From assembly GCF_009707865.1 (NCBI RefSeq), contig NZ_WMBA01000031.1, positions 1 through 64,000 of the forward strand: DNA of 64,000 bases, given 5' to 3'. A program made the position numbers and the translations under genes. The notes beneath the pieces were generated by a model. It did no database searches. It was not told where the DNA came from and saw nothing but the letters and a program-made list of their open reading frames with translations. Below are positions 14,931-32,227 of the stretch, in pieces. Every line of letters begins with the position of its first letter. Positions within the stretch are counted from its first letter, which is position 1. This stretch comes from Amycolatopsis pithecellobii (GTDB lineage Bacteria; Actinomycetota; Actinomycetes; Mycobacteriales; Pseudonocardiaceae).

Positions 14931-14993
14931 TGGGCCTCCCGGCAGATCGTTGTGTCGCGCATTCCAGACTAGGCCAATCGGACGCTTCACCGT

Positions 14994-15008
14994 GTCTCAA
15001 ATTGAGAC
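14994..15008. promoter_or_regulatory. Operator palindrome 1: GTCTCAAATTGAGAC
   Basis: A perfect 7+1+7 dyad, extended to 10+1+10 over 14991-15011. It lies between the divergent activator gene and the small gene at 15044. The same sequence recurs at 15282 and, with one change, at 31470. Confidence 0.8.
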
Positions 15009-15043
15009 ACGCCGGCCGTCGCGCACGGCTGTCTCATGGACAC

Positions 15044-15274
15044 ATGGCCGACGAGACGTACAACCCGTGGACCGTCGTCAACGTGGTCTTTCACCACCTG
15101 GTGGAGCAGGGACTGCACCCCGAACTCGGCGAGGGCGGCCATCCGGGTGACCCTGCCGCCGAGCTGCTGCGTGCGTTCGGGATCCAGCCCCATGTCGAGG
15201 GCGATGCGCGGGTGCACGACAAGGTCCGGCAACAGCTCGCGGACCTGCGCGAGCGGATGCTCGGCGAGCAATGA
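15044..15274 (+). CDS. Small conserved protein of the propane monooxygenase locus
   Basis: 76 aa, soluble, beginning MADETYNPWTVVNVVFHHLV; mostly helical, with charged C-terminal KVRQQLADLRERMLGEQ. It has no cysteines or membrane segment and no motif I can assign. The ATG at 15044 is favoured over the in-frame upstream extension because the latter would start inside the first operator. It is bracketed by two copies of the same 15-bp operator, so it should be controlled with prmA, and may assist hydroxylase assembly or tune the activator. Function unknown. Confidence 0.75.
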   Translation: MADETYNPWTVVNVVFHHLVEQGLHPELGEGGHPGDPAAELLRAFGIQPHVEGDARVHDKVRQQLADLRERMLGEQ

Positions 15275-15281
15275 ACCGGGT

Positions 15282-15296
15282 GTCTCAAATTGAGAC
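15282..15296. promoter_or_regulatory. Operator palindrome 2: GTCTCAAATTGAGAC, upstream of prmA
   Basis: Identical to the copy at 14994. It ends 95 bp before the prmA ATG and is followed 29 nt later by GTCCCATAAGAC. It is the best candidate for the activator's site at the monooxygenase operon. Confidence 0.8.
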
Positions 15297-15325
15297 CCGC
15301 GTCACATCGACGGGGCCTTGTAATC

Positions 15326-15337
15326 GTCCCATAAGAC
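15326..15337 (+). promoter_or_regulatory. Shared promoter element GTCCCATAAGAC upstream of prmA
   Basis: Matches GTCCGATAGGAC at 31515-31526 in 10 of 12 bases, at nearly the same distance from the palindrome. Probably the core promoter (-10 region) of the regulated transcript. No sigma-54-type GG/GC pair is evident. Confidence 0.5.
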
Positions 15338-15391
15338 GTGTGCCCACGCGCCGAACCTGAACTCGCCCGCGATCACGGGTAAGGAGCCGCA

Positions 15392-17044
15392 ATGAGCCGT
15401 CAGAGCGTGGCGAAAGCCCACCAGAAAATCCAGGAACTCTCCTGGGAGCCGGCCTATCACGAGCCGGTGTCCCAGTACGGGACCGACTACACCTTCCGCA
15501 AGGCCAAGAAGAAGGACCCGTTGAAGCAGGTGCTGCGGTCCTACTTCCCGATGCAGGAGGAAAAGGACCACCGGGTCTACGGTGCCGAGGACGGTGCCAT
15601 CCGCGGCAACATGTTCCGGCAGGTTCAGGAACGCTGGCTGGAATGGCAGAAACTGTTCCTGTCGATCATCCCGCTGCCGGAGATCTCCGCGGCGCGGGCG
15701 ATGCCGCTGCTGTTCCGCACCGTTCCCAACCCGGAGCTGCACAACGGACAGGCCATCCAGATGATCGACGAGGTACGGCACTCGACGATCCAGCAGAACC
15801 TCAAGCGCCTGTACATGAACAACTACATCGACCCCGCCGGCTTCAACTCGAGCCTGCGCAACTTCCAGAACGACTACTGCGGCACGATCGGCCGCCAGTT
15901 CGCGGAAGGGTTCATCACCGGTGACGCGATCACCGCGGCGAGCATCTACCTGACGATCGTCGCCGAAACCGCCTTCACCAACACCCTGTTCGTCGCGATG
16001 CCCGCCGAGGCCGCCGCCAACGGCGACTACCTGCTGCCGACGGTGTTCCACTCGGTGCAGTCCGACGAGTCGCGGCACATCTCCAACGGGTACGCGACGC
16101 TGCTGATGGCGCTGTCCGACGAAAGCAACCACCAGCTACTCGAACGCGACCTGCGCTACGCGTGGTGGAACAACCACGCCGTGGTGGACGCGGCGATCGG
16201 TACCTTCATCGAGTACGGCACCAAGGACCGCCGCAAGGAGCGCGAGAGCTACGCGGAGATGTGGCGCCGGTGGATCTACGACGACTACTACCGCAGTTAC
16301 CTGGTGCCGCTGGAGAAGTACGGCCTGGTGATCCCGCACGACCTCATCGAGGAGGCGTGGAACCGGATCTGGAACAAGGGGTATGTGCACGAGGTGGCGC
16401 AGTTCTTCGCCACCGGGTGGCTCGCCAACTACTGGCGGATCGACCCGATGACCGACGAGGACTTCGAGTGGTTCGAGTACAAGTACCCCGGCTGGTACGA
16501 CAAGTACGGAAAGTGGTGGGAGAACTACAACCGGCTGTCCGTCCCGAACGGACACAAGCCGATCGCGTTCGAGAACGTCGACTACGTGTACCCGCACCGC
16601 TGCTGGACCTGCATGGTGCCGTGCCTCATCCGCGAGGACATGGTCGTGGACAAAGTGGACGGTCAGTGGCGTACCTATTGTTCGGAGACCTGCCGCTGGA
16701 CCGACGCCGAGGCGTTCCGGCCGACCTACCAGGGGCGCAGCACCCCGAACATGGGCCAGCTCATCGGTGCCCGGGAATGGGAAACCCTTTACCACGGCTG
16801 GAACTTCGCGGACATCGTGCAGGACATGGGCTACGTCCGTGACGACGGCAAGACCCTCGTCGCGCAGCCACACCTGGACCTCGACCCGAAGAAGATGTGG
16901 ACGCTGGACCACCTGCGCAGGTGCCCGGAGTTCCCCAGCCCGAACGTGCTGCTCAACGAGATGACCGACGAACAGCGGTCCGCCTTCGTCGCCGACTACA
17001 ACCGGCAGGGCCCGGCGGGGCGTCCCGCACCGGCCGAGGGCTGA
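15392..17044 (+). CDS. prmA: Propane/acetone monooxygenase hydroxylase large subunit
   Basis: 550 aa, normal for the alpha subunit of soluble diiron monooxygenases. All six iron ligands can be placed: Glu97, Glu127 and His130 (IDEVRHS), then Glu192, Glu226 and His229 (SDESRHI). It oxidises propane at C2 to 2-propanol, and in the Mim system also acetone to acetol and phenol to hydroquinone. A Cys-rich segment near 405-430 ([16 protein letters not shown]) is like the extra C-terminal domain in this subgroup. AAGGAG precedes the ATG. First gene of prmABCD; expected in the cytoplasm as an (alpha-beta)2 hydroxylase with PrmC. Confidence 0.95.
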
Positions 17045-17056
17045 CGGTTGTGGACC

Positions 17057-17080
17057 GGGGAGGGCGCACGCGCCCTCCCC
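17057..17080 (+). other. Intra-operon hairpin between prmA and prmB
   Basis: Perfect 10-bp arms GGGGAGGGCG (17057-17066) and CGCCCTCCCC (17071-17080), 4-nt loop, 28 nt before the prmB start. No U-tract follows. It may lower downstream expression or protect the prmA message 3' end, fitting a need for more hydroxylase than reductase. Confidence 0.65.
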
Positions 17081-17108
17081 GCCTGTAGCGCCGATCGAAG
17101 GAGTCTCG

Positions 17109-18146
17109 TTGGCGGACAAGCATGTGGTGCGGTTCGAACCCGTGGGGATCGAGATCGAGGCGGACGAAGACCAGACGATTCTCCGCGCCGCCGCCGAGCA
17201 GGGCGTCATGCTGATGCACGGCTGCAAGGAAGGCCAGTGCGCCTCCTGCAAATCCTTCATTCTCGACGGCGATGACGTCGAGCACGACCGGTACTCCACC
17301 TTCGCGCTGCCCGATTTCGAAAAGGAGGAGGGATACACCCTGCTGTGCCGGGCACACGCCTACGAGGACCTCACGATCGAGCTGCTCAACTACGACGAGG
17401 AGATGATCCACTCCGGACTCCCGATCCAGCAGGCGGTCGTCGAGGTGGTCTCGAAGGACCGTGTCACCCACGACATGCGGCATCTGATCGTGCGGCTGGT
17501 GGAGCCGGAAACGGTGAAGTTCTTTCCGGGGCAGTATCTGGACTTCTCGGTGCCCGGCACCGGCGAGACCCGGTCGTTCTCGATGGCGAACACGTCCTCG
17601 CGGGAAGGCGGGCGGCTCGAGTTCGTCATCAAGTGCTATCCGGATGGGCTGTTCTCGAACTTCCTCGACACGCGCCTGGAAGTCGGGGACCGGCTGGACG
17701 TGACCGGACCGTTCGGGGTGTTCACCTTGCGGGACAACCCGGACGCGGATCTGGTGTTCATCGGCGGGGGCGCCGGTATGGCGCCGATCCTGGCGTTGCT
17801 GCGCTCGATGGCCGAGCGCGGTATCGAGCGGAAGACGACCTTCTACTACGGCGCGCGGCGTCGCAAGGACCTCTGTTTCGAGGAGGAACTTCGCGCGCTG
17901 GAGGAGAAGCTGGCCGATTTCCGTTACGTACCAGCACTGTCCGAACCGGACGGTGAGGACTGGGACGGGGAGACCGGGTTGATCACCGACGTGCTGCGCC
18001 GGTGCGAAACCGGTCTCGACGGTGCCGACGCGTATGTGTGCGGGCCGCCACCGATGGTGGAGGCGGCGCTGGAACTACTGCCCGCCTTGGGTGTGGCTGA
18101 GAAACGAGTCTTCTACGACAAGTTCACGACGACGGGTGAGGGATAA
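17109..18146 (+). CDS. prmB: Propane monooxygenase reductase
   Basis: 345 aa, TTG start with GAAGGAG six bases upstream. N-terminal plant-type [2Fe-2S] ferredoxin domain with Cys39, Cys44, Cys47 (GCKEGQCASCKSF) and Cys80, then an FNR-like module: FAD-binding RSFSMANTS, and NAD(P)H-binding GGGAGMAPILALL and YVCGPPPMVEAAL. It carries electrons from NADH through FAD and the Fe-S cluster to the diiron centre of PrmA. Separated from prmA by a strong hairpin and followed 4 nt later by prmC. Confidence 0.95.
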   Translation: MADKHVVRFEPVGIEIEADEDQTILRAAAEQGVMLMHGCKEGQCASCKSFILDGDDVEHDRYSTFALPDFEKEEGYTLLCRAHAYEDLTIELLNYDEEMIHSGLPIQQAVVEVVSKDRVTHDMRHLIVRLVEPETVKFFPGQYLDFSVPGTGETRSFSMANTSSREGGRLEFVIKCYPDGLFSNFLDTRLEVGDRLDVTGPFGVFTLRDNPDADLVFIGGGAGMAPILALLRSMAERGIERKTTFYYGARRRKDLCFEEELRALEEKLADFRYVPALSEPDGEDWDGETGLITDVLRRCETGLDGADAYVCGPPPMVEAALELLPALGVAEKRVFYDKFTTTGEG

Positions 18147-18150
18147 CGAA

Positions 18151-19338
18151 ATGTCAGCTCCGACAACTGGGTCGACCACCCAAGAACGCAGCGTGCCGAA
18201 GCCTGTTTTCACCGACGCCGAGGCGGGCGCTAAACAGTTCCCGGACTCGCAGCTGCGGCGGTTCAACTACTTCAACCCGGCCAAGCGCAAGCAGAGCCAC
18301 TACGAGGACGTGACCGTCGAGGTTCAGCCGGATCCGCGGCACTATCTCACCCAGGGCTGGCTGTACGGCTTCGCCGACGGCCGCGGCGGATACCCGCTGG
18401 AGTGGACGAAACTGAAGGCATGGGGCACGGACCGGCCGGTGCCCGAGCGGTACCCGGGTTCCGGCGGCAAGGGCTATGACTGGCCGGCGCTCGGCTGGCA
18501 CGAGTTCCGTGACCCCAACGAGGAATGGGAGCTCACCCTCTACCGCTACAACGCCAACGTGGTCCGCCAGCTCAACCAGAACGTCGACGCGGCACGCCAG
18601 TCCAAGGCGTTCGAGCAGTGGAACCGCAACTGGGTGCACTTCGTGGCACAGCACGTCGGCGCGTGGATGCACGTGGACCACGGACTTGGTCTGTACCTGT
18701 TCGCCAACGCCAACCGGCGTGCGCCGACCAACATGCACAACAACGCGATCTCGGTGAACAGCATGCACCGGATCCGGGCCGCACAGGACCTGGCGCTGTA
18801 CAACCTGACCCTGTCCGAGGAGATCGAGGACTTCGACGGCGGCGCGCATCTCGTGACCTGGAACGAAGATCCGGCGTGGCAAGGCGTACGGGAGGTCGCC
18901 GAGCAGCTGACCGGGATCGACGACTGGTGCGAGGCGATCTTCGCCGCCAACGTCGTGTTCGAGCCGTTGGTGGGCGAGTTGTTCCGCAGCAACCTGGTGC
19001 AGCAGGCGGCACCGGCCAACGGCGACTTCGTGACACCGACCCTGATCGGCGCCGAGGAGTTCGACTACGCCGAGCGCGACCTGCGCTACACCCGCGTGAT
19101 GTTCGATTTGCTGGTCAACGACAAGGAGTTCGCCGAGCACAACCGGGCGCTGTTGCACGAGTGGCTCGGCACGTGGGTGCCACGGTGCATTCGCGCCGCG
19201 CGGACGCTGCAACCGTTGTGGTCGCAGCCCGACGCCAAACCCCGGCGCTTCGAAGACGGTCTCGACCGTGCGAAGAGCCGCTTCGGCGGCATCCTGTCCG
19301 ATCTGGGTCTGCAAGCACCGAAGGAGCTGGCGCAGTGA
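18151..19338 (+). CDS. prmC: Propane monooxygenase hydroxylase small (beta) subunit
   Basis: 395 aa. It has the ferritin-like helical plan of the beta subunit of soluble diiron hydroxylases, including ELTLYRYNANVVRQLNQNV, WVHFVAQHVGAWMHVDHGL and DYAERDLRYTRVMFDLLV, but lacks the iron-ligating ExxH pairs of the large subunit, as expected for a structural partner. ATG 18151 is chosen because upstream frame lies inside prmB. Its stop overlaps the prmD start by 4 nt, coupling it to the effector protein. Confidence 0.94.
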   Translation: MSAPTTGSTTQERSVPKPVFTDAEAGAKQFPDSQLRRFNYFNPAKRKQSHYEDVTVEVQPDPRHYLTQGWLYGFADGRGGYPLEWTKLKAWGTDRPVPERYPGSGGKGYDWPALGWHEFRDPNEEWELTLYRYNANVVRQLNQNVDAARQSKAFEQWNRNWVHFVAQHVGAWMHVDHGLGLYLFANANRRAPTNMHNNAISVNSMHRIRAAQDLALYNLTLSEEIEDFDGGAHLVTWNEDPAWQGVREVAEQLTGIDDWCEAIFAANVVFEPLVGELFRSNLVQQAAPANGDFVTPTLIGAEEFDYAERDLRYTRVMFDLLVNDKEFAEHNRALLHEWLGTWVPRCIRAARTLQPLWSQPDAKPRRFEDGLDRAKSRFGGILSDLGLQAPKELAQ

Positions 19339-19706
19339 CCACGTTCAAGACGGCCGAGAGCCCCTACAAGTCCGACAACACCGCCTCCAACAGGTGCGGT
19401 TTCACGCTGATGAACAACCAAGTCGGCGTGATCGTCGCCGAGGTGCTGGAGAAACTGCCCAACGTCACCATCACCCACCTGCCTTCGATGATCCGGGTGG
19501 ACGGTCAGAACAGGTTCGACGTGGTGTACGCCGACGTCGACGAGGCCGCCGGTGAGGAGGAAGGCTGGTTCAACGCGGCCGAGTTCGAGGAGAGCATGTC
19601 CACCCACTACGGCCGGATGGTGCACCTCGACGACCGCACGATCATGTTCGCCAACCCCGAGGACGCGGCCGAGTATCTCGACTTCGACCTCAAGCCCATC
19701 CGTTAA
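19335..19706 (+). CDS. prmD: Propane monooxygenase coupling (effector) protein
   Basis: 123 aa, GTG start in a GTGA overlap with prmC. It matches the MmoB/DmpM effector family in size and in features such as NRCGFTLMNNQVGVIVAEVL and ITHLPSMIRVDGQNRFDVVY. The family binds the hydroxylase near the diiron site to gate O2 and substrate access and couple NADH use to oxidation. The next gene is 111 nt away, and the gap contains a dispersed repeat element (19722-19787). Confidence 0.93.
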   Translation: MTTFKTAESPYKSDNTASNRCGFTLMNNQVGVIVAEVLEKLPNVTITHLPSMIRVDGQNRFDVVYADVDEAAGEEEGWFNAAEFEESMSTHYGRMVHLDDRTIMFANPEDAAEYLDFDLKPIR

Positions 19707-19721
19707 AACCATGCTGAGCGT

Positions 19722-19787
19722 GGCTTGCGTGGCGGCGTGGGCAGCAGAGTGCCGGTTAACGGCCCACAGCAAGCGGCTCCGCCGCTT
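19722..19787. repeat. Dispersed 64-66-bp element, copy A
   Basis: Begins GGCTTGCGTGGCGG and ends with ACGGCCCACAG, CAAGCGGCTCCGCCGCTT. The last part folds as AAGCGGC (19771-19777), loop TCC, GCCGCTT (19781-19787). Copy B is at 37588-37651 in the opposite orientation, with a different loop and diverged middle. Confidence 0.65.
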
Positions 19788-19817
19788 CAACAAGACGATC
19801 GAAAGGGGGTCAACCCG

Positions 19818-20855
19818 ATGTACGAGAAGGATGGCGAGAAGTACTTCGTCGTCGACGGGCACACCCATTTCTGGGACGCGAGCCCGGAGAACTGGGTACC
19901 GGGACAGGAAGAGTACGCCAAAGGCTGGATCGAGTGCTTCCACGCCTACCAGGGGCTCGGTCCACAGGACACGCACTGGCCGATCGACCGGTTCCAGAAG
20001 TACTCCGAGGAACTGATGATGCACGACCTGTTCGAGGTCGGGCACGTGGACAAGGCGATTTTCCAGCCGACGAACCTGCGGCAGTGGTACATCAACGGCT
20101 TCAACACCACCGAGTCCGACGGCGCGATGGCCGAGCGGCACCCCGGAAAGTTCCTGGTGAACACCACGTTCGACCCGCGTGAGGGCGACGCCGGGATGCG
20201 GGCCTTCGAAGAGCGGGTCAAGCGTTACGGCTGCAAGGGTGTCAAGCTCTACACCGCCGAATGGCGCGGGGACTCGCGGGGCTGGAACTTGAAGGACCCG
20301 GAAGCCGCGCGGTATCTGGAAAAGTGTGAGGAGCTGGGCGTCAAGAACATCCACGTCCACAAGGGACCGACGATCTGGCCGCTGGACAAGGACGCCTTCG
20401 ATGTGTCCGATGTGGACTATGTCGCGACGAACTTCCAGGGGCTCAACTTCATCGTCGAGCACGTCGGCCTGCCACGGATCGAGGACTTCTGCTTCATGGC
20501 GACGCAGGAGCGCAACGTCTACGCGGGCCTGGCGGTGGTCATCGGCGGGCTGATGCACGCCCGGCCGAAGTTCTTCGCGAAGGTCATGGGCGAGCTGATG
20601 TTCTGGCTCGGTGAAGACAAGCTGATCTTCGGTGCCGACTACGCGATCTGGGAACCGAAGTGGCAGGTCGAAGGGTTCGTCGACTGGAACATGCCCTCGG
20701 ACGAGGAGCTGTCGGACTTCCCGCCGCTGACCGTGGCGCAGAAGAAGAAGATTCTCGGGCTCAACGCCGCGCGGCTGTACGGCATCGATGTGCCCGCGGA
20801 GCTTGACCTTCAGGCGCCGAAGGTCGTCGAGCCCGTCGGCGTGCCGAACCCATGA
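19818..20855 (+). CDS. Amidohydrolase-family metal-dependent hydrolase
   Basis: 345 aa. The metal-binding HxH is in VVDGHTHFWD (His15, His17); a C-terminal LIFGADYAIW supplies the usual Asp. It belongs to the ACMS-decarboxylase/TIM-barrel group (amidohydro-rel 2). GAAAGGGGG lies upstream of the ATG. An equivalent gene follows mimABCD in Mycobacterium. Its role in alkane or ketone oxidation is not established; hydrolysis or decarboxylation of an oxidation product, or help in enzyme maturation, are both possible. Its stop overlaps the next start by ATGA. Confidence 0.88.
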   Translation: MYEKDGEKYFVVDGHTHFWDASPENWVPGQEEYAKGWIECFHAYQGLGPQDTHWPIDRFQKYSEELMMHDLFEVGHVDKAIFQPTNLRQWYINGFNTTESDGAMAERHPGKFLVNTTFDPREGDAGMRAFEERVKRYGCKGVKLYTAEWRGDSRGWNLKDPEAARYLEKCEELGVKNIHVHKGPTIWPLDKDAFDVSDVDYVATNFQGLNFIVEHVGLPRIEDFCFMATQERNVYAGLAVVIGGLMHARPKFFAKVMGELMFWLGEDKLIFGADYAIWEPKWQVEGFVDWNMPSDEELSDFPPLTVAQKKKILGLNAARLYGIDVPAELDLQAPKVVEPVGVPNP

Positions 20856-21559
20856 CGGCACTGCACGAGCGGGGTGCCCGCGCCGGCTACGCCGAGGTGT
20901 GGTCGGCGCTGGGCACCGTCCGGGATCCGGAACTGGACGAACCGTTGACGGACCTGGGTTTTGTCGCGCGGTGCGAGGTTTCCGCCGGCAGAGCCCAGGT
21001 CCAGTTGCGGCTGCCGACGTATTTCTGCGCGCCGAACTTCGCCTTCCTGATGGTCGCGGACGCCTACGACGCGGTGTCCGCGGTGCCGGGCATCGAGGAA
21101 ACCGAAGTCGTGCTGCAGGATCACTTCGCGGCCGAAGCCATCAACCGGGGCGTCGCGGCACGCTCTGGTTTCGTCGCTTCGTTCGAGGGTGAGGCCGTGG
21201 ACGAGCTCGATTCGCTGCGCGCGGACTTCCTGCGCAAGGCGGTGCTCGCCGGGACCGACCGGGTATGCCGTGCACTGGTTTCCGCCGGGCTCGACACGGC
21301 GCGCCTGGCGGAGCTGACTCTCGGCGAGATACCGTCCACTGTGGACATTACCAGGCTGCGGGAGCGCCGCCACGAGCTGGGTTTGCCTGCCGGCGACGAC
21401 GCTCCGCTGCTGATCGATCCCGGCAGCGGTACCGGTGTCGGCGCCGGGGATGTCAAGCGGCACCTGGCCTTCGCCCGCCTCACCCGCACCAGCATGGAGG
21501 CGAACTCGGGGGTGTGCCGCGGGATGTTGCGCGTCCGTTACCAGTCCGACCGGAAGTAG
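20852..21559 (+). CDS. DUF59/MIP18-type Fe-S assembly-like protein
   Basis: 235 aa. Residues about 13-90 have the DUF59 plan: VWSALGTVRDPELDEPLTDLGF and then VQLRLPTYFCAPNF with a Cys in the usual place. DUF59 proteins (SufT, PaaD, MIP18) assist metal-cluster assembly in target enzymes. The C-terminal 140 residues have no fold I recognise. It is coupled to the amidohydrolase, and its presence in prm/mim loci suggests a part in maturing the diiron hydroxylase or the reductase cluster; that is inference. Confidence 0.82.
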   Translation: MTALHERGARAGYAEVWSALGTVRDPELDEPLTDLGFVARCEVSAGRAQVQLRLPTYFCAPNFAFLMVADAYDAVSAVPGIEETEVVLQDHFAAEAINRGVAARSGFVASFEGEAVDELDSLRADFLRKAVLAGTDRVCRALVSAGLDTARLAELTLGEIPSTVDITRLRERRHELGLPAGDDAPLLIDPGSGTGVGAGDVKRHLAFARLTRTSMEANSGVCRGMLRVRYQSDRK

Positions 21560-21667
21560 GCGGACACGGACCGCAGCCGATGCGCTTGTAGCACCCGTTT
21601 CCGCCGTGGCTGCCATCGGATTGGTAACAACAGCACAGTCGCAGATCGACAACGAGGAGGGTGCGGG

Positions 21668-22693
21668 ATGAAAGCCGTCCGGCTGCACAAATACCACCAG
21701 CAGCCCGTCGTGGAACAGGTGCCGGAGCCGGCCGCGAAGGAACCCTTCGACGTGGTCGTCAAGATCGGCGGAGCCGGGGTGTGCCGGACCGATCTGCACA
21801 TCATCGAGGAGCAGTGGGCGGAGAAGTCGGGGGTCACCCTGCCTTACACGATTGGGCACGAAAACGCGGGCTGGGTGCACGAAGTCGGTCCCGGAGTGTC
21901 CAATGTGGAGGTCGGTGACACGGTGATCCTGCACCCGACGCCGACCTGCGGGCTGTGTCATGCGTGCCGGGCCGGCAACGACATGCACTGCGAGAACAGC
22001 AGGTTTCCCGGCATCGACAGTGATGGCGGGATGGCCGAATACCTGCTCACCTCCGCACGGGCGTGCATCAAGCTCGACCCGGGAACGCAGCCAGCCGATG
22101 TCGCCGCGCTCGCGGACGCGGGCATCACGGCCTACCACGCCGTCCGCAAGGCCGTACCGCTGCTGTACCCGGGCACCGTATGTGTCGTCAACGGGGCCGG
22201 GGGACTGGGGCACATCGGTATCCAGTCGCTGAAAGCGCTGACCGCGACGAAGATCGTGGTGGTGGACCGCAACGCCGACGCGCTGAAGCTCGCGGCCGAA
22301 CTGGGCGCGGACGAAACCGTGCCGGCGGACGGGAAACAGGTCGGCGCCGTGCTCGACCTGACCGGCGGCAACGGGGCCGAGGTCGTGCTCGACTTCGTCG
22401 CCGAGCAAGGCGCGCAGCAGGACGCGTTCGCGATGACGCGTGCGGGCGGCTCGCACTTCGTGATCGGCTATGGCAGCAACATCGACATTCCGACGATCGA
22501 CATCATCTCCACCGAGCGGAACGTGGTGGGGAACCTGGTCGGCACCTACAACGATCTCGTCGAGCTGATGGTGCTGGCGCAGGCGGGAAAGGTGACCCTG
22601 CACACGAAGAAGTATCCGCTGGATGCCGCGCTCGACGCGCTGGCCGATCTCGACGCCGGTCACGTCCGCGGCCGCGCGATCCTGACCCCTTAA
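21668..22693 (+). CDS. Zinc-dependent alcohol dehydrogenase (2-propanol oxidation candidate)
   Basis: 341 aa medium-chain dehydrogenase. Catalytic zinc ligands appear in GVCRTDLH and TIGHENAG; structural zinc cysteines in CGLCHACRAGNDMHC; NAD-binding VNGAGGLGHIG, with an acidic residue (VVVDRNADAL) that favours NAD+. In propane loci the equivalent gene oxidises 2-propanol to acetone. A GAGGAGGG ribosome site precedes it. It is 108 nt from the DUF59 gene and may have an additional promoter (TTGGTAACAAC-rich stretch), but no operator copy is there. It probably continues into groEL 16 nt downstream. Confidence 0.92.
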   Translation: MKAVRLHKYHQQPVVEQVPEPAAKEPFDVVVKIGGAGVCRTDLHIIEEQWAEKSGVTLPYTIGHENAGWVHEVGPGVSNVEVGDTVILHPTPTCGLCHACRAGNDMHCENSRFPGIDSDGGMAEYLLTSARACIKLDPGTQPADVAALADAGITAYHAVRKAVPLLYPGTVCVVNGAGGLGHIGIQSLKALTATKIVVVDRNADALKLAAELGADETVPADGKQVGAVLDLTGGNGAEVVLDFVAEQGAQQDAFAMTRAGGSHFVIGYGSNIDIPTIDIISTERNVVGNLVGTYNDLVELMVLAQAGKVTLHTKKYPLDAALDALADLDAGHVRGRAILTP

Positions 22694-22706
22694 GCTGGAG
22701 GAGTAG

Positions 22707-24401
<1,695 letters not shown>

Positions 24402-24416
24402 GCGTTATCTCGCGGC

Positions 24417-24453
24417 GCCGCCGGCGTGGGACTTCGGGTCTCACGCCGGCGGC
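24417..24453 (+). terminator. Terminator of the propane monooxygenase operon
   Basis: Perfect 12-bp outer arms GCCGCCGGCGTG (24417-24428) and CACGCCGGCGGC (24442-24453), a paired inner stem and a TTCGG loop, followed by ATTTTCTT. This is one of the few U-rich terminators in the window. Confidence 0.85.
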
Positions 24454-24567
24454 ATTTTCTTGCGCGGTCGTGAAGTCTGCACCGGATCGGCTCTTGTTTA
24501 GTTGGTTCAGACCATGCATACTTCGTTGTCACCAACAACAAACGTTGATCCGCTGGTGGTGACGCCG

Positions 24568-25917
24568 ATGTCCCTCCGCACGTTGTTTCCGCTTCTTGCG
24601 GTCGTGGGTGCGCTCGTATTGACCGTCGTGTCCCCGTTCGCCGCGCAGGCGGCGACCGGGCAGATCACCGGCTACGGCGGCAAATGCGTCGACGTGGCGG
24701 GGGCCGCCACCGCGAACGGAACGCATGTCCAGCTCTACGACTGCAACGGTACGGCCGCGCAGCGGTGGACCACCGGCGACGGCACCGTCCGCGCGCTCGG
24801 CAAGTGCCTCGACGTCACCGGCGGCGCCACTGCCAACGGCGCCAAGGTCCAGCTGTATGACTGCAACGGCACGAGCGCGCAGAGCTGGACCTACAACAGT
24901 GGTACGAAAGCCTTGGTGCACAACGGATCCGGCAAGTGTCTCGACGACACCGACTGGAACACCGCGAACGGGACCCAGCTGCAGATCTGGGACTGTGCCG
25001 GCACGGCCAACCAGCAGTGGTCCGCGCCCGGCGGCACCGCCACGGGCGGGTCGATGGCCGTCGCGCCTTACCTTTACGAAGGCTGGGGAAACCCGCCGAA
25101 TCCGGCCGACATCATGTCCGCCACCGGGGTCAAATGGTTCACCCTCGCGTTCGTGCTGTCCGGCGGCAGCTGCAACCCGCAATGGGACGGCGCGCGCCCG
25201 CTGACCGGGGGCGCGGACCAGTCGGCCGTCACCACGATCCGGGCCGGCGGCGGCGACGTGATCCCCTCCTTCGGCGGCTACAGCGGCAACAAGCTCGAAC
25301 AGTCCTGCGGGAACGCGGGCGCGCTCGCCGGGGCGTACCAGGCCGTCATCAACGCGCTGGGCTTCAAGGCGATCGACATCGACCTCGAAGCCGACGCGTA
25401 CAACGACCCCGCCGTGCAGCAGCGCACCGTGGACGCGCTCAAGACGATCCGCGCGAACAACGCGGGAATCAAGATCTACGTCACCATCGGCACTGGGCAG
25501 GCCGGCCCCGACACGAGCCTGATCAACCGGGCGGCCTCCTCCGGATTCGAGGCCGACGCATGGACGATCATGCCGTTCGACTTCGGTGGCGCCGGCCAGA
25601 ACATGGGCACCCTGACCACGCAGGCGGCCGAAGGACTCAAGAACGCGTTGAAGAACGCGTACGGCTACAACGACGACACCGCTTACCGCCACAGCGGTAT
25701 TTCATCGATGAACGGGATCACCGACCAGTCGGAGACCGTCACGGTGGGCGACTTCACCACGATCCTCGGCTACGCGAACGCGCATCACCTGGCGCGGCTC
25801 ACTTTCTGGTCGGCGAACCGGGACCGCCCGTGCCCCGGCGGCCTGACCGACTCGTGCTCGGGCGTGGCACAGTCCAATTGGGACTACACCAGGGTCTTCG
25901 CCCAGTACGCCGGTTAG
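24568..25917 (+). CDS. Secreted ricin-lectin / GH18-like glycoside hydrolase
   Basis: 449 aa from ATG 24568, which begins a good Sec signal peptide (hydrophobic VVGALVLTVVSPFAAQA, cleavage before ATGQ). Residues about 35-165 form a CBM13 beta-trefoil with three repeats ending QRWTT, QSWTY, QQWSA. The C-terminal half is GH18-like, with SFGGYSG and FKAIDIDLEA. In the DxxDxDxE catalytic motif the first Asp is Lys, but the last Asp and the Glu remain, so chitinase-type activity is plausible though not certain. Exported; probably acts on chitin or other glycans. Upstream ATGs (24502, 24514) would give a long polar leader before the signal peptide. Confidence 0.85.
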   Translation: MSLRTLFPLLAVVGALVLTVVSPFAAQAATGQITGYGGKCVDVAGAATANGTHVQLYDCNGTAAQRWTTGDGTVRALGKCLDVTGGATANGAKVQLYDCNGTSAQSWTYNSGTKALVHNGSGKCLDDTDWNTANGTQLQIWDCAGTANQQWSAPGGTATGGSMAVAPYLYEGWGNPPNPADIMSATGVKWFTLAFVLSGGSCNPQWDGARPLTGGADQSAVTTIRAGGGDVIPSFGGYSGNKLEQSCGNAGALAGAYQAVINALGFKAIDIDLEADAYNDPAVQQRTVDALKTIRANNAGIKIYVTIGTGQAGPDTSLINRAASSGFEADAWTIMPFDFGGAGQNMGTLTTQAAEGLKNALKNAYGYNDDTAYRHSGISSMNGITDQSETVTVGDFTTILGYANAHHLARLTFWSANRDRPCPGGLTDSCSGVAQSNWDYTRVFAQYAG

Positions 25918-26092
25918 CCACCCATCACTTCTCCCTGACACGAAAGGTAATCAGTCACCCCATGGCGTGGGGCTCACCGGGTCGGCGGTGGGCCCCACTT
26001 CGCGTCGTCCGTCCATAGTGGACGTTAGGTGCGCCCGCGCGTGCAGAGGTACGGTGAACTGGCATCGGTTCGACGACGAAACGAGGTGCACG

Positions 26093-27313
26093 ATGACGGG
26101 CAACAAAGCCGTTGCGTACGTCGGCAAGGGCACCGTCGAGGTCGAGGAAATCGACTATCCGACCTTTGTCCTGCACGACGGCCCCGGGGTCAACAAAGCC
26201 AACGTGGGACGCGAAGTTCACCACGGCGTGATCCTGAAGAACGTGGCGACGAACATCTGTGGCAGTGACCAGCACATGGTGCGCGGGCGCACGACCGCGC
26301 CGGAAGGACTGGTACTGGGCCACGAGATCACCGGCGAGGTGGTCGAAGTCGGCCGGGACGTGGAGTTCGTGCATGAGGGGGACCTGGTCTCGGTACCGTT
26401 CAACATCGCGTGCGGGCGGTGCCGCAACTGCAAGGAGGGAAAGACCGGGATCTGTCTGAATGTCAACCCGGACCGGCCGGGCTCGGCCTACGGGTACGTG
26501 GACATGGGCGGCTGGGTCGGCGGGCAGGCCGAGTACGTGCTGGTGCCCTACGCCGACTGGAACGTGCTGAAGTTCCCGGATCGCGACCAGGCGATGGAGA
26601 AGATCCTTGACCTGGCCATGCTTTCCGACATCTTCCCGACCGGATTCCACGGCTGCGTGTCGGCCGGGGTCACGGTCGGTTCGACGGTCTACATCGCCGG
26701 TGCCGGGCCGGTCGGGCTGGCGGCCGCGGCGTCGGCACAGCTGCTGGGCGCGGCGGTGGTCATCGTCGGCGATCTCAACGCCGACCGGCTCGCGCAGGCC
26801 CGCTCGTTCGGCTGCGAGACCGTGGATGTGTCGCAGGGTGACCCCAAGGACCAGATCGCGGAAATCCTGCACACACCGGAAGTCGACTGCGGCGTGGACG
26901 CGGTCGGGTTCGAGGCGCGCGGCCACGGTCGTGAGGCGGAAACGGAAAAACCGGCCACCGTGCTCAATTCGCTGATGGACATCACCAGGGCCGGCGGTGC
27001 GCTGGGCATTCCGGGCCTGTACGTCACCGGTGACCCTGGCGCGGCGGACCCGGCGGCCCGCGAAGGTTCGCTGTCCATCCGGATCGGCCTCGGCTGGGCG
27101 AAATCGCACGAGTTCACCACCGGCCAGTGCCCGGTCATGCGCTATCACCGCAAGCTGATGATGGCCATCCTGCACGACCGGGTCCAGATCGCGAAGGCGG
27201 TCAACGCGACGCCGATCCCGCTCACCGAAGCGCCGCGCGGGTACCGCGAGTTCGACAGCGGTGCCGCCCGCAAGTATGTGCTCGACCCGCACGGGTCCCT
27301 TGCGCGGACCTGA
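26093..27313 (+). CDS. fdhA: Glutathione-independent formaldehyde dehydrogenase
   Basis: 406 aa. Matches the Pseudomonas-type NAD-dependent Zn formaldehyde dehydrogenase: catalytic Cys in NICGSDQHMVRG, GHEITGEV, structural zinc Cys in CGRCRNCKEGKTGIC, and NAD-binding YIAGAGPVGLAAAA. A long C-terminal insertion typical of the group is present. It oxidises formaldehyde to formate and can dismutate aldehydes. Upstream frame to 25967 lacks a ribosome site, whereas ACGAGG lies near this ATG. Its position 1.7 kb after the propane locus fits removal of formaldehyde from acetol cleavage, but no shared operator was found here. Confidence 0.92.
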   Translation: MTGNKAVAYVGKGTVEVEEIDYPTFVLHDGPGVNKANVGREVHHGVILKNVATNICGSDQHMVRGRTTAPEGLVLGHEITGEVVEVGRDVEFVHEGDLVSVPFNIACGRCRNCKEGKTGICLNVNPDRPGSAYGYVDMGGWVGGQAEYVLVPYADWNVLKFPDRDQAMEKILDLAMLSDIFPTGFHGCVSAGVTVGSTVYIAGAGPVGLAAAASAQLLGAAVVIVGDLNADRLAQARSFGCETVDVSQGDPKDQIAEILHTPEVDCGVDAVGFEARGHGREAETEKPATVLNSLMDITRAGGALGIPGLYVTGDPGAADPAAREGSLSIRIGLGWAKSHEFTTGQCPVMRYHRKLMMAILHDRVQIAKAVNATPIPLTEAPRGYREFDSGAARKYVLDPHGSLART

Positions 27314-27433
27314 CACCGGCGGCGGCACACTCGGGTTCCGCCGGGCCACTGGCTAGAGTGACCCCGGCGGAAACCCGAGCGTGCAGCCGAACCATGAGCC
27401 GGCAGCCGCGTGTGACAGTGCGGAGGTCGACTC

Positions 27434-29626
27434 GTGGACTACGGCCGTGGTCGTCGCGTGCCGCGGCGGGCGTTGTGGCGCCGCGTGCGCCGGACCCTTT
27501 ACGTCGTACTGGGACTGGGCATGTTCGTGCCGGTGGCGGCCTTCGTCATCGGCTACTTCCTGGTCGACGTGCCGGACCCGAACGCGCTCGCGGCGAGCCT
27601 CAACCAGCCGGTCACGCTGTACTACGCGGACGGCTCGACGCTGTATACGAAATCGACCCAGAACAGCCACAGTGTGGTGACCTGGGACCAGATCCCGGCG
27701 TCGATGAAGAACGCGCAGATCGCGGCCGAGGACGAGACGTTCATGACGAACTCGGGCTTCGACCTCAAGGCGATCCTGCGCACCGTGTGGAACCGGGTGA
27801 CCGGCGGCACCGGCGGCGGTTCGACGATCGGGCAGGAATACGTCAAGAACGCCACCGGCAACGACGATCCGACGCTGTCCCGCAAGTTCGTGGAAATGGT
27901 CGAGTCGTACAAGATGACCCGTACCTATTCCAAAGAGGACATTCTGACCGCGTACCTCAACACTGTCTATTTCGGACGTGGTGCGTACGGGATCGCCGCG
28001 GCGGCGAAGGCGTACTACAACGAGGACGTGTCGCAGCTGAACACCGGGCAGGCCGCGTTGCTTGCGGGTCTCGTGCAGTTGCCGGCGCAGGCGGACAATC
28101 CCGCGTACCAGCAGCGCCGCTACGCCTACGTGATGGGGCGGTTGCTGGCCAATCACTGGATCACGGCCGCGGACCTCGCGTCGGCGCCGTTTCCCACGCC
28201 GGTACCGGGCCCGGCGAAGAACGGCGGATCGGCGCTGGCCGACCGGCAGTACATCGTGTCGCAGGCCTTCGCGGAACTCGCGCAGGCCGGCTACTCCGAG
28301 CAGTCGCTGGCGGCCGAGGGCGCGAAGATCTACCTGACTGTCGAACCGGCCGCGCAAGCCGCCGCGGAGCAGGCCGTCACGAAGATCATGGCCGCGGACA
28401 AGGATTATCCCGACGAAGGCAGCGCGCTGGTGTCGGCCGACCCGCGCACCGGGAAGATCCTCGCGTACTACGGCGGCGACGGCTCGACGGCGTACGACCT
28501 GGCGACCACACCGCAGCAACCCGGTTCCTCGTTCAAGCCGTACGTGCTCGCGGCGGGAGTGCGGGCGCAGCCGGAGACGATCGGGCTGAACACGATCTAC
28601 GACGGCAGTGACAACCAGACCATCGCCGGTCAGGTGGTGCACAACTCCGACGGCGAGGGTGCGCCGCAGATCACCGTCAAGGACGCGATGACCCAGTCGG
28701 TGAACACGGTGTTCTACCGGATGGGCGCCGACATCGGGGTGCGGGACGTGCGGCAGGCGGCCTGGGACGCCGGAATTCCCCGGCAGATCACCACTTCGCT
28801 GGGATCGACGTACGACTCGCTGCAGAACGACGATGCGGATGGGAAGGGCACCGGCACCACGGAACTGGGCATCACACTCGGCCAGTACGCGGTGCGCCCG
28901 CTCGACCAGGCGCAGGGGTACGCGACGTTCGCGGCGAACGGGCAGTATGTGCCGCTGCACCTGGTGGCGCGGGTGACCGATGACGCGGGCCGGGCGCTGT
29001 ACGGGTTCACGGCCACCCCGAAACCCGCGTTCTCCACCGATCCGGAAACGAACTCGGCCATCGCGGCCATCGTGACGCAGTCGATGACATCGGTGTCGGA
29101 GTCCTCGGGAGACGGGTTGCCGGACTCGCGGCCGAACGCGGCGAAGACGGGCACCGCGCAGTACCAGGACAGCGGGCACAACTCGGAGGCGTGGATGGTC
29201 GGGTACACGCCGCAGGTGGTGACCGCGGTGTGGTTCGGCAACAAGAAGCAGCCGGCGCCGATCTACGGGAACTACCACAACGGCAAGGGAAAGGCGCGCG
29301 GGTACGACGTGTACGGGCGCGAGGAGCCGGGCTACATCTGGCAGGCATACATGGGCGGCTACCTGGACGGCAAGCCCGCGATGGCGTTCCCGGACGCGCC
29401 GGACCTGACCGCCCCTTCGACGACCGAGGCCCCGCCGACGACCGAAGAACCGACCACGACGGAGCCCGACGAGACGACGACGGAGGAACAGCCGCCCAGC
29501 ACGGTCCCGTGGACCCGCCCGCCATGGCGCACCTCCACCGCGCCGGACTGCTTCCCGGGCGACGGGTGCGACACGAGCACGGACACCCCGACGTCGAGTT
29601 CGCGGCAGCGGCCCGTCACGGGCTGA
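27434..29626 (+). CDS. Class A penicillin-binding protein (bifunctional transglycosylase/transpeptidase)
   Basis: 730 aa. One N-terminal membrane anchor (TLYVVLGLGMFVPVAAFVIG). GT51 motifs: AAEDETF with catalytic Glu, GGSTIGQEYVKN, and LNTVYFGRGAYGI. Transpeptidase motifs: SSFK (SxxK), SVN and KTGT. The last 90 residues are Thr/Pro/Glu-rich and disordered (PPTTEEPTTTEPDETTTEEQ), a cell-wall-spanning tail usual in actinomycetes. GTG start with GGAG upstream. It polymerises and crosslinks peptidoglycan outside the membrane. Confidence 0.94.
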   Translation: MDYGRGRRVPRRALWRRVRRTLYVVLGLGMFVPVAAFVIGYFLVDVPDPNALAASLNQPVTLYYADGSTLYTKSTQNSHSVVTWDQIPASMKNAQIAAEDETFMTNSGFDLKAILRTVWNRVTGGTGGGSTIGQEYVKNATGNDDPTLSRKFVEMVESYKMTRTYSKEDILTAYLNTVYFGRGAYGIAAAAKAYYNEDVSQLNTGQAALLAGLVQLPAQADNPAYQQRRYAYVMGRLLANHWITAADLASAPFPTPVPGPAKNGGSALADRQYIVSQAFAELAQAGYSEQSLAAEGAKIYLTVEPAAQAAAEQAVTKIMAADKDYPDEGSALVSADPRTGKILAYYGGDGSTAYDLATTPQQPGSSFKPYVLAAGVRAQPETIGLNTIYDGSDNQTIAGQVVHNSDGEGAPQITVKDAMTQSVNTVFYRMGADIGVRDVRQAAWDAGIPRQITTSLGSTYDSLQNDDADGKGTGTTELGITLGQYAVRPLDQAQGYATFAANGQYVPLHLVARVTDDAGRALYGFTATPKPAFSTDPETNSAIAAIVTQSMTSVSESSGDGLPDSRPNAAKTGTAQYQDSGHNSEAWMVGYTPQVVTAVWFGNKKQPAPIYGNYHNGKGKARGYDVYGREEPGYIWQAYMGGYLDGKPAMAFPDAPDLTAPSTTEAPPTTEEPTTTEPDETTTEEQPPSTVPWTRPPWRTSTAPDCFPGDGCDTSTDTPTSSSRQRPVTG

Positions 29627-29705
29627 CGGCCTGGCGTCGGCGCGGGTCCGGGTGTGCGGTGGCGTCTCGTCCTGTGCGGCAGCCGTGCGGTGCGTGGTGC
29701 AGGGT

Positions 29706-29900
29706 CGACTCGTGCAACGGCAACGTTCAACTCGTGCAACGGCAACGTTCAACTCGCGCGGCGGGAATGCTCGACTCGTGCAACGGCAACGTTCAACTCG
29801 CGCGGCGGGAATGCTCGACTCGCGCGACGGGAATGCTCGACTCGCGCGACGGGAACGTTCGACTCGCGCGAACGGAACGCTCGACTCGCGCGACCGGAAC
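29706..29900. repeat. Nine tandem copies of a 22-bp repeat
   Basis: Period 22 bp exactly, starting at 29706, 29728, 29750 and so on, with the ninth copy incomplete. Each unit begins C(G/A)ACTCG(C/T)GC, continues with a GRCGGSAA-type core and ends (T/C)G(T/C)T. Units 2 and 3, and 4 and 5, form an alternating pair, suggesting duplication of a two-unit block. It fills the gap between convergent genes ending at 29626 and 29907. The period is not a multiple of 3, so it is not a coding repeat. Confidence 0.9.
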
Positions 29901-29906
29901 CGGGGG

Positions 29907-30689
29907 TTAGGTCGGCGGGGTGGTTTGGTGGCGGGTGAGCATGCCGTCGGGTGGGGCGGTCGGCGACCATTTGCCTTCGGCGGCGATCCAGGTCTGGCCG
30001 TCGAAGGTGACGCGGTCGACGGCGAACCGGGTCGCGTTGGCGACCAGCCAGGTCGCCAGTGCCCACCCCGGTGCCGGGTCGTGCCTGCCGGTGAACGCCG
30101 CCGTGCCGAGTTCCGCGTTCGCGGCCGCGATCAGCGCGGGTGCCGTGGCGGTGCCGAGGACGAGATCGTGGCAGGCGAGCGTGGCCGGGGTCTGACCCGT
30201 CAGCGCGCCGGCGAGTACCCGGGCTTCCGGTTCCCACTGGGCATACGCGTCGGGCGCGCCGGAACGCTGCACCAGCTGCGCCGCCTGCGTCACGCTCAGC
30301 TGCGTCCAGTTCGGCTGCTGGCGCAACCGCTGATAGAACGCCGTCGTCGCGTAGACCGGGTCGGTCACCTGCTCGTAGCTGCCCCAGCCCTGGCTCGGCC
30401 GCTGCTGGAACAACCCCGCCGAATCCCGGTCACCGCCGGTCAGGTTCCGAAGCTTCGATTCCTGCAGCACAGTGGCGAGCGCGACCGTGACGGCGTGGTC
30501 CGGCATGCCGAGCCGCATCCCGACCGCCGCGATCGTCGCCGCGTTCTGTGCCTGGTCCGGGGTCAGGCTGTACTGGCCGGCCGAACACGCCGGAGCCGGT
30601 GGCTTGCGCAGCACGAGGACCAGCCACGTCACGCCACCGGCCACCACGGCGATGACGAGCACCAGACATCCCCACCGGCGCGCCTGCAC
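29907..30689 (-). CDS. Membrane-anchored lysozyme-like / transglycosylase-like protein
   Basis: 260 aa. An N-terminal membrane segment (CLVLVIAVVAGGVTWLVLVL) is followed by an extracellular domain with ATVLQESKLRNLTGGDRD, SAGLFQQRPSQGWG and TAFYQRL, the pattern of lysozyme-like/resuscitation-related actinobacterial proteins with a candidate catalytic Glu in LQES. The C-terminal half has no clear assignment. Probably acts on peptidoglycan; activity is inferred. It is convergent with the class A PBP gene, across the tandem repeats. Confidence 0.75.
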   Translation of the reverse strand: MQARRWGCLVLVIAVVAGGVTWLVLVLRKPPAPACSAGQYSLTPDQAQNAATIAAVGMRLGMPDHAVTVALATVLQESKLRNLTGGDRDSAGLFQQRPSQGWGSYEQVTDPVYATTAFYQRLRQQPNWTQLSVTQAAQLVQRSGAPDAYAQWEPEARVLAGALTGQTPATLACHDLVLGTATAPALIAAANAELGTAAFTGRHDPAPGWALATWLVANATRFAVDRVTFDGQTWIAAEGKWSPTAPPDGMLTRHQTTPPT

Positions 30690-30713
30690 ATTCTCTTCTT
30701 ACCAGGGGTCTTG

Positions 30714-31418
30714 TCACGCCTGGTCAGGGTTCCAGGTCAGCAGCCGCACGCGGCGGACCGTGTCCAGATGCGCCCGCATCGCCTCCGCCGCGGCCGGAGG
30801 GTCCTGAGCGCGGATCGCCTCGGCGATCTTCGTGTGCTGCGCGAGCGACCGCGGGGGACGAGCGGGCTGGCGCAACGATTCCCGCCGCGTTTCCGCGATC
30901 TGCGCGCCGATCCGGGCCATGAAGTCGGCCAGCAGCTCGCTGTGCGCGGCCGCGGTCACCGCGGCGTGGAACCGGCGATCCCCGTCCTCACCGAAGGCCC
31001 CGTCCTCGATTTCGGCGCGCATCGCGTCCAGCGCCGCGTCGATCTCGGCGAGATCGGCGTCGGTTCGCCGGGCCGCGGCCAGCTCGGCGAGTTTCGTCTC
31101 CATCGCCTCGCGCGCGTCCAGCACATCGGGCAGTCGCCGGCGCCGTTCGACGAGCTCGTCCACCGGCTCCGGATGCAGGCTGTCGGTGCGCAGGTAGGTG
31201 CCGCCGCCGTGCCGGATTTCCACCAGCCCCTGGACTTCCAGCACCACGATGGCCTGTTTCAGCGACGCACGGCTGACCCGGAGCCGGTCGGCGAGATCCC
31301 GTTCGGAGGGCAGCCGGTCACCGGAGCGCAGGCCCGCGGCATCGGCGTACGCTCGCAGCTGCCGCACCACCTGTTCGTACAGGCGCAGGCGCGTGACCGG
31401 GCGAAGCGGATCGGACAT
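30714..31418 (-). CDS. GntR/FadR-family transcriptional regulator
   Basis: 234 aa. N-terminal winged helix: LRSGDRLPSERDLADRLRVSRASLKQAIVVLEVQGLV at about 29-66, then HGGGTYL. The C-terminal all-helical FCD ligand domain has the metal-binding His pattern (RRFHAAVTAAAH, later LAQHTKIAEAI). FadR-type regulators sense small organic acids or acyl-CoA. It is divergent from the acetate-type permease at 31550, so that permease may be under two regulators: this one and the operator shared with the propane locus. Confidence 0.9.
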   Translation of the reverse strand: MSDPLRPVTRLRLYEQVVRQLRAYADAAGLRSGDRLPSERDLADRLRVSRASLKQAIVVLEVQGLVEIRHGGGTYLRTDSLHPEPVDELVERRRRLPDVLDAREAMETKLAELAAARRTDADLAEIDAALDAMRAEIEDGAFGEDGDRRFHAAVTAAAHSELLADFMARIGAQIAETRRESLRQPARPPRSLAQHTKIAEAIRAQDPPAAAEAMRAHLDTVRRVRLLTWNPDQA

Positions 31419-31469
31419 CCGCGTCAGCCTAGTGGATGAGTGGCTCAGCCAGCCGGATTGGCTTGCGGT

Positions 31470-31484
31470 GTCTCAGATTGAGAC
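31470..31484. promoter_or_regulatory. Operator palindrome 3: GTCTCAGATTGAGAC, upstream of the acetate permease
   Basis: Differs in one base from the two copies flanking the gene before prmA, 16 kb away. It ends 65 bp before the permease ATG and lies in the divergent gap with the FadR-type regulator. Confidence 0.78.
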
Positions 31485-31514
31485 GCGCGGCATGGGGGAG
31501 CGGGTCTCCAATAG

Positions 31515-31549: not shown

Positions 31550-32227
31550 ATGTCACAGGTGCAGCGCAACGAGTCCACACCCACCCCCACCGCCCACGAG
31601 GTCCGTTCGATGGTCGAGCGGTCAGGGCCGGCAGGCGTCGTCGTCGGCGCCGGCGGGGACCCGCTGATCATCGGGTTGCCGATCTTCGCCGTCGGTTCGC
31701 TCGCGCTCGGCATGGCGCTGATCGGGGTGATCCCGGCGACCGCGCTCGGCGCCGTCGTGCCGATCATCGTGTTCGGCACCGGGCTCTTCCTCACCATCGT
31801 GACCGTCTGGGCGGCACTGCTCGCCCAGACGATGGTCGCGGGTATCACCGGCACGTTCGCCGGATTCTGGCTCAGCCTCGGCGCGTTGCTGCTCGGGCTC
31901 GGCCACAACTGGTACGGCGTGACCACCGCGCAGGCAGGCTCGGTGCAGGAACTGTTCTTCATCGCGTGGGGGTGCTTGTTCCTGTTCCTGCTGGTACCCA
32001 CGTTGCGATTGCCGGCGATCTACCCGGCGGTCGTCGCGCTCGTCGTGGCGGCGCTGGCGCTCGCCGCGGCCGGCGCGGCCACCGGTGACGCGAACCTGCT
32101 GAAGGCAGCCGGATACGTCATTCTCCTCTTCGCGCTCCTCGGTTTTTGTGCTTTTGTGAACGTCGGACTCACCGCTATGGGCGCGAAAAGGCCGTTCCCG
32201 CCGCTCGGCCGGGCACTCGTCGACTGA
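31550..32227 (+). CDS. GPR1/FUN34/YaaH (SatP)-type acetate permease
   Basis: 225 aa with six predicted membrane helices, usual for the AceTr family. GDPLIIGLPIFAVGSLALGM corresponds to the family's N-terminal NP(A/I)PLGL-type signature, although the Asn-Pro is here Asp-Pro. Later helices include FAGFWLSLGALLLGLG and FFIAWGCLFLFLL. Family members move acetate and succinate with protons. The shared operator suggests export or uptake of acetate during propane/acetone growth. ATG 31550 has weak GAAGG upstream; other in-frame starts lie before the promoter element. Confidence 0.87.
   Translation: MSQVQRNESTPTPTAHEVRSMVERSGPAGVVVGAGGDPLIIGLPIFAVGSLALGMALIGVIPATALGAVVPIIVFGTGLFLTIVTVWAALLAQTMVAGITGTFAGFWLSLGALLLGLGHNWYGVTTAQAGSVQELFFIAWGCLFLFLLVPTLRLPAIYPAVVALVVAALALAAAGAATGDANLLKAAGYVILLFALLGFCAFVNVGLTAMGAKRPFPPLGRALVD

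Follow-up and report, generated by a model that had tools for sequence, protein, structure and literature searches.

In the window analysed here, 64,000 nucleotides of the Amycolatopsis pithecellobii genome (contig NZ_WMBA01000031.1, positions 1 to 64,000), a prmABCD monooxygenase operon stands next to the gene of a MimR/AcoR-like activator, and three copies of a 15-bp palindrome very probably mark the operators of a single propane/acetone regulon (Table 1). The sequence GTCTCA-NNN-TGAGAC would be the operator of this activator, with a dimer of its Fis-type helix-turn-helix binding each copy and its GAF domain perhaps responding to acetone or an alcohol as the C3 signal. Four promoters would be driven from the three operators: operator 1, common to a divergent pair, would serve the activator's own gene and a small conserved gene, operator 2 prmABCD plus accessory genes, and operator 3 a permease gene 16 kb away. 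At these promoters we propose class II activation of ordinary RNA polymerase, in which the operator centre at about -42 would replace the -35 element beside a -10-like hexamer, and sigma-54 would have no role. The permease gene may once have closed the prm operon, and after it left, an operator and -10 of its own at the same spacing would have kept it in the regulon. The basis for this explanation in the sequences is the motif, its spacing, its covariation with the activator and two arrangements of the permease gene, from which we infer binding, activation, inducer, start sites, the direction of relocation and the substrate.

Operators 1 and 2 both read GTCTCAAATTGAGAC, and operator 3 reads GTCTCAGATTGAGAC. 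An initial annotation of the window had placed the three copies at these coordinates, which we confirmed, and had described them as a 7+1+7 palindrome; across loci, the motif is instead 6+3+6. That the recurrence is very unlikely to be due to chance, as the same annotation held, agrees with our counts: with both strands counted, the window holds six matches with at most three mismatches against 1.53 expected, none of 100 shuffles reaches six, and no further place within three mismatches exists in the 64 kb beyond the three palindromes. A scan of the whole genome (7,899,446 bases, 144 contigs), which the annotation had also called for, found TCTCANNTTGAGA exactly and solely at the three window places rather than in many unrelated copies, and the exact copies of GTCTCANNNTGAGAC in these 7.9 Mb are likewise only the three window palindromes. 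Allowing GTCTCANNNTGAGAC one mismatch adds two places, which we rejected as operators because neither has a hexamer at 21-23 bp. At two mismatches, the genome gives 66 places and a reversed-pattern control 65, which is noise, so only the near-exact form of the operator is informative. Based on the window shuffles, the whole-genome counts and the match in spacing to the hexamer described below, we rejected a chance origin of the three palindromes. No title or abstract opening reporting this operator was found in a literature search whose scope mostly excluded subscription literature, and a full-text search with four 15-mers, a 17-mer and a 13-mer had as its sole match a podosome paper, to the 13-mer alone.

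The palindromes might instead belong to another global factor, such as a CRP-like protein, that acts at all these promoters while the activator binds elsewhere, and the section on the prmA promoter of Rhodococcus BCP1 in PMC4428276 does mark palindromes near the -35 region, putative CRP sites among them. A global factor would be expected to have many sites, but this genome has three, all beside the genes of this activator or the permease, and the site also tracks the recognition helix of the activator, a variant of which is paired with a matching change in the operator. We therefore regard this explanation as very unlikely.

The covariation of helix and operator was first counted with loci L063-L108 included (114 of 117 against 4 of 16), but that count was biased, as these loci, the window excepted, were mostly fetched for holding the motif. 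We therefore recounted on 124 loci fetched by activator homology (L033-L062, L155-L224, L243-L265 and L267), the order-level set consisting of 18 selected activator loci, five plasmid loci and L267; two loci without a readable helix, L060 (exact site) and L223 (no site), were left out. An upstream site with at most one mismatch accompanied 107 of 111 activators with a SRATIYRKI-like helix, 99 of these sites being exact, or 100 of 104 once repeats were removed (seven genomes were present twice). The same was true of only 1 of 11 activators with other helices (L168, helix MSRATLYRKI). In L047 (MSRSSLYRKL) and L264 (MSRSSIYRKI), the site is GTCCCA-NNN-TGGGAC instead, with both half-sites altered alike, and this variant was found at none of 70 activator-homology loci. 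Operator and helix therefore change together, as expected if the activator reads the operator directly. Among 200 genomes of the family, the motif is present in 54 of the 56 with the activator and in 23 of the 144 without it, and the reversed control in 5 of the 200. The genome studied here has a single activator match at E <= 1e-40, which makes the candidate binder unambiguous in this organism, though not in relatives with paralogues.

Within the window, TGAGAC-N22-TNNNAT occurs at exactly two places, upstream of prmA and of the permease, against 0.09 expected, and none of 100 shuffles reached this count. For relatives, the count was restricted to genes that have, in the 400 bp upstream, a site with no more than one mismatch; seven repeated loci and identical sequences had been removed. 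On this basis, TNNNAT stands 21-23 bp past the operator in 54 of 64 prmA promoters (prmA likeness of at least 85%), 53 of them at exactly 22, in 39 of 67 small-gene promoters, and in all five distinct permease promoters (an earlier tally of 13 contained repeats). The activator's own promoter has TANNNT at 21-23 bp in 67 of 81 cases, and the remaining 42 offsets have a mean of 0.07-0.48 hexamer matches. A spacing of about 22 bp would put the operator near -42, where a -35 element would otherwise stand. The prmA start of Rhodococcus BCP1 was mapped, with a hypothetical -10, TTGTAT, 7 bp upstream (PMC4428276, prmA promoter section), and if our hexamer is a -10 and the start lies 7 bp on as in BCP1, the operator centre would occupy the class II position. 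On that assumption, transcription would begin at about 14959 for the activator, 15044 for the small gene, 15331 for prmA and 31519 for the permease. The canonical TANNNT of the activator against the TNNNAT of the targets would fit basal expression of the regulator and activator-dependent targets. For the small gene, the start codon follows 6 nt past the hexamer in 38 of the 48 loci tallied, so its mRNA is probably leaderless. The activator has no GAFTGA and no Sigma54_activat match, and there is no sigma-54 match in its genome (4 of 14 control genomes do match), which favours direct class II activation of ordinary polymerase. Our comparison makes testable how Actinobacteria that have enhancer-binding-type regulators but no sigma-54 use such proteins to switch on genes: it supplies an operator of 15 bp, a constant distance of 22 bp to the hexamer, a helix that varies with the operator, and starts predicted to the base. 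It also provides an operator-hexamer rule for finding regulon members beyond the propane cluster, of which the permease is the first so found.

A permease orthologue with at least 68% identity is present in 10 of the 12 genus genomes with a close activator and in none of the 7 without (Fisher P 0.0007), and in the 200 family genomes, a permease match at E <= 1e-50 occurs in eight, each of which also belongs to the 56 that have an activator (P 2.6e-5). In seven genomes (G002, G009, G015, G016 and G017, as well as G070 and G121 from another genus), the permease gene comes right after groEL, with a gap within about 60 bp by projected starts and no site with at most three mismatches in the 320 bp upstream, an arrangement in which it seems to end the prm operon. 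The gene is separated from prm by 16-28 kb in the window, G003, G004 and G012 and is on a different contig in G001; an exact operator is found 60-85 bp upstream of the relocated gene in all five. A family match in G191 (53%) has neither arrangement within the fetched stretch. A tree of activator, PrmB and PrmC, which also contains two Prauserella genomes left out of permease-state scoring, unites the relocated group in one clade together with the permease-lacking G005 and G011, with a support of 100 for this clade without G001. This pattern would be explained by a single relocation, with the operator retained in each lineage that retained the permease. Five more distant loci likewise have a SatP-like gene (37-44%) next to the activator; ahead of that gene, L200 has two one-mismatch sites, L224 one site with two mismatches and L204 one with three, and L215 and L218 have none with at most three. 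Because the same operator stands at the same spacing before the permease, the gene very probably serves the same metabolic programme, and its place in the propane/acetone regulon is strongly supported by these comparisons. Three ideas of the initial annotation, that the copies represent one operator, that the AcoR/MimR-like activator is its natural binder and that the permease is linked to this regulon, thus find support in covariation, promoter geometry and relocation.

Operator 3 also adjoins the gene of a divergent FadR-type (FCD) GntR regulator, which could bind it and control the permease, the likeness to the prm operators being coincidental. The GntR gene of the window is divergent to the permease, with its start 52 bp from operator 3, and FCD regulators often control adjacent transport genes. 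The operator does not stay with the GntR gene in relatives, however: the gene lies about 1.7-3.6 kb from the operator in L071, L076 and L094, L063 has no GntR match, and in all four the operator stays with the permease. The same palindrome with its N22-hexamer moreover occurs at prmA, where no GntR match was seen. On this synteny we rejected the GntR regulator as the binder of operator 3, and find it extremely improbable that it controls the permease through this site.

Several observations weigh against the regulon proposed here. Four SRATI-type activators have no upstream site: L248 and L249 (both beside GroEL), L061 and L211 (where the contig begins inside the gene). In relatives, activators of other clusters carry a nearly identical operator, so the site is not private to this activator and cross-talk among paralogous activators is possible. 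Genes without a site were excluded from the denominators of the promoter geometry, and in prmA of a second cluster type, T...AT appears in only 8 of 19 cases, with most of the others reading CACACT at 22. Beyond the hexamer, the permease and prmA promoters are clearly alike in the window (matched by none of 500 shuffles) and modestly so in G003 (15 of 500), and no such likeness is seen in G012, G004 and G001 (47, 90 and 295 of 500); that the permease promoter is a plain duplicate of the prmA promoter, which would hold in two of five genomes, is only suggestive. Short partial sigma-54 matches occur in 2 of 19 genus genomes. Tree support falls to 74 at the G001 node and to 58 at one inner node, and prm is present without the permease in G005 and G011, so the permease is not essential.

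Across the genus, TCTCANNTTGAGA is present in 17 of 19 genomes, and 12 of 19 have a close orthologue of the activator, with 76-100% identity. Eleven of these 12 have an exact site on each side of the small gene that separates activator and prmA; in the twelfth, G005, the small gene was not found and the two sites are 39 bp apart. The second prm cluster type (PrmA 77-80% and activator about 43% identical), present in 11 genomes, has GTCTCACATTGAGAC upstream of prmA in nine of them and GTCTCACAATGAGAC in two (L109 and L110). A third type, made up of activator, amidohydrolase, FeS-assembly-type and alcohol dehydrogenase genes with no PrmA or monooxygenase match within the fetched stretch, carries the site between these genes in each of the 13 loci observed (L064, L068, L074, L077, L082, L084, L085, L087, L091, L097, L098, L102 and L106), which were fetched for holding the motif and so give no rate of its absence. 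Of 14 further sites in relatives, seven are accompanied by TANNNT at exactly 22 bp on one side. Four of these point to enoyl-CoA-hydratase-like genes (L065:6862 and L067:5982 by Pfam, L070:6045 and L103:16118 by likeness), as a second operator beyond the groEL of the second cluster type, one to an alcohol dehydrogenase (L079), and two (L073:6028 and L093:5917) to a conserved INEPATVRR-like gene without a Pfam family. The other seven, in L068, L078, L092, L105, L108, L085 and L252, have no TANNNT at 22 bp. We also observed an ABM-domain gene across from the second operator in L065, and the INEPATVRR-like gene appears by eye to be divergent from TetR- or IclR-like genes.

The initial annotation called the permease an acetate permease and tied it to the cleavage of acetol to acetate and formaldehyde, neither of which our results support. 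The protein belongs to PF01184 (48.7 bits, cut-off 25) and is, judging by its sequence, a divergent member of the YaaH family: the prm-linked permeases read GDPLIIGLP in place of the SatP motif NPAPLGL, a single-sequence search matched no PDB chain, and a nine-sequence profile reached the SatP/YaaH succinate-acetate permeases 5zug and 5ys3 at E 0.0049 and 0.06. The two groups have PF01184 in common and align over nearly the whole chain, but are very distant. For a related actinobacterial cluster, the part of PMC7176365 that deals with it proposes a different route, from acetol through methylglyoxal to pyruvate. With the regulon otherwise as proposed, we see about an even chance that the permease mainly moves another small carboxylate or a neutral C3 product, for instance pyruvate, lactate or acetol, as the replaced motif, the distance to solved structures and this route would suggest. 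Against such a substrate, the solved relatives are named succinate-acetate permeases, and the window encodes a formaldehyde dehydrogenase that would fit the formation of formaldehyde and hence of acetate. Its orthologues in five relatives lie some 10-20 kb away from the prm operator, though the dehydrogenase gene itself lacks an operator.

The features of the locus are collected in Table 1. The activator has GAF, AAA_lid_14 and HTH_8 domains above their cut-offs, and its gene adjoins the mim/prm monooxygenase operon, as is typical of MimR/AcoR-like regulators; its nearest relatives in named genomes are from Amycolatopsis species. Because of the position of its predicted -10, the activator gene likely starts at the GTG at 14930, which gives a protein of 595 aa, and not at 14990. 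The small protein is found in most related prm loci, in several actinobacterial families, with 14 invariant columns in 38 sequences. It has no Pfam or NCBIfam family and no PDB sequence match, and its AlphaFold model (mean predicted local distance difference test score, pLDDT, 76.8) matched no PDB fold better than E 1.8. A 22-bp tandem repeat of 8.9 copies (29705-29900) lies directly downstream of an open reading frame (27434-29626) that by eye is penicillin-binding-protein-like.

Table 1. Operators, predicted promoter hexamers and genes of the window; positions count from its first letter.
Feature	Position	Strand	Remarks
MimR/AcoR-like activator	13143..14930	-	GAF, AAA lid, Fis-type helix-turn-helix with helix ISRATIYRKI; no GAFTGA
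Predicted -10 of activator	14966..14971	-	TAGTCT, 22 bp from operator 1
Operator 1	14994..15008		GTCTCAAATTGAGAC; between divergent activator gene and small gene
Predicted -10 of small gene	15032..15037	+	TCTCAT, 23 bp from operator 1; ATG 6 nt on
Small conserved protein, 76 aa	15044..15274	+	ATG 15044; no known family
Operator 2	15282..15296		GTCTCAAATTGAGAC; upstream of prmA
Predicted -10 of prmA	15319..15324	+	TGTAAT, 22 bp from operator 2
prmA, monooxygenase large subunit	15392..17044	+	Named by position and likeness to prm clusters
prmB, reductase	17109..18146	+	
prmC, monooxygenase small subunit	18151..19338	+	By position and orthology
prmD, MimD-type effector subunit	19335..19706	+	Above NCBIfam MimD cut-off
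Accessory genes: amidohydrolase, FeS-assembly-type protein, alcohol dehydrogenase, GroEL	19818..24401	+	
Glutathione-independent formaldehyde dehydrogenase	25967..27313		749.7 bits, cut-off 636.95
GntR/FCD regulator	30714..31418	-	Adjoins operator 3
Operator 3	31470..31484		GTCTCAGATTGAGAC; upstream of permease
Predicted -10 of permease	31507..31512	+	TCCAAT, 22 bp from operator 3
Gpr1/Fun34/YaaH (SatP) superfamily permease	31550..32227	+	

For comparison with Proteobacteria, we searched the 700 bp upstream of prmA in eight plasmid-borne prm loci. The sigma-54-dependent prm regulators of Skermanella and Azospirillum are distant GAF and Fis-type helix-turn-helix relatives of the activator (26-30% in aligned pieces), and like the window, these loci have paired GTCTCA-N3-TGAGAC-like sites upstream of prmA, two with one mismatch in Skermanella, and one with one and one with two in Azospirillum. 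They differ in having GAFTGA, the helix ISRSTLYRK and one or two mismatches in the sites, whose centres lie some 60-95 bp ahead of a -24/-12 promoter. No site with at most two mismatches was found in these 700 bp for the plasmid prmA of Paracoccus, Aminobacter, Gemmobacter, Bradyrhizobium, Caballeronia and Methylocella. On the plasmids of Paracoccus aminophilus (pAMI4, L271) and Gemmobacter fulvus (p2, L276), a gene annotated as RNA polymerase sigma-54 factor lies within a few kb of prmA. It is tempting to speculate, at somewhat less than even odds, that the operator code was kept and its use changed, from pairs of sigma-54 enhancers in Proteobacteria to loss of GAFTGA and a fixed site near -42 in Actinobacteria lacking sigma-54, where operator and -10 would form a portable module that let the permease leave the operon without dropping out of the regulon. 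As the helix of Skermanella and Azospirillum differs, this idea of one code with two uses is a lead and not a result.

The labels AcoR and MimR of the activator are drawn in part from PMC8784404 and PMC8394569, and in its account of the mimR-mimABCD system of mycobacteria, the latter calls mimR the regulator of the operon and groEL an associated gene. The window resembles this system in its effector subunit, which scores above the MimD cut-off, and in the GAF and Fis-type helix-turn-helix regulator beside the operon; its own features are the two operators flanking a small conserved gene and the third at a distant permease. In prmABCD of Rhodococcus sp. BCP1, the section of PMC4428276 on the prmA promoter likens a palindrome to the Escherichia coli Fis site, marks CRP-like sites, and names no operator of the regulator and no other gene of a regulon. 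By its description, a Fis-family regulator is divergent from prmA there, as in the window, and palindromes lie around -35. The exact operator also stands before two Rhodococcus plasmid prmA genes, followed at 22 bp by TTCAAT or TTCACT.

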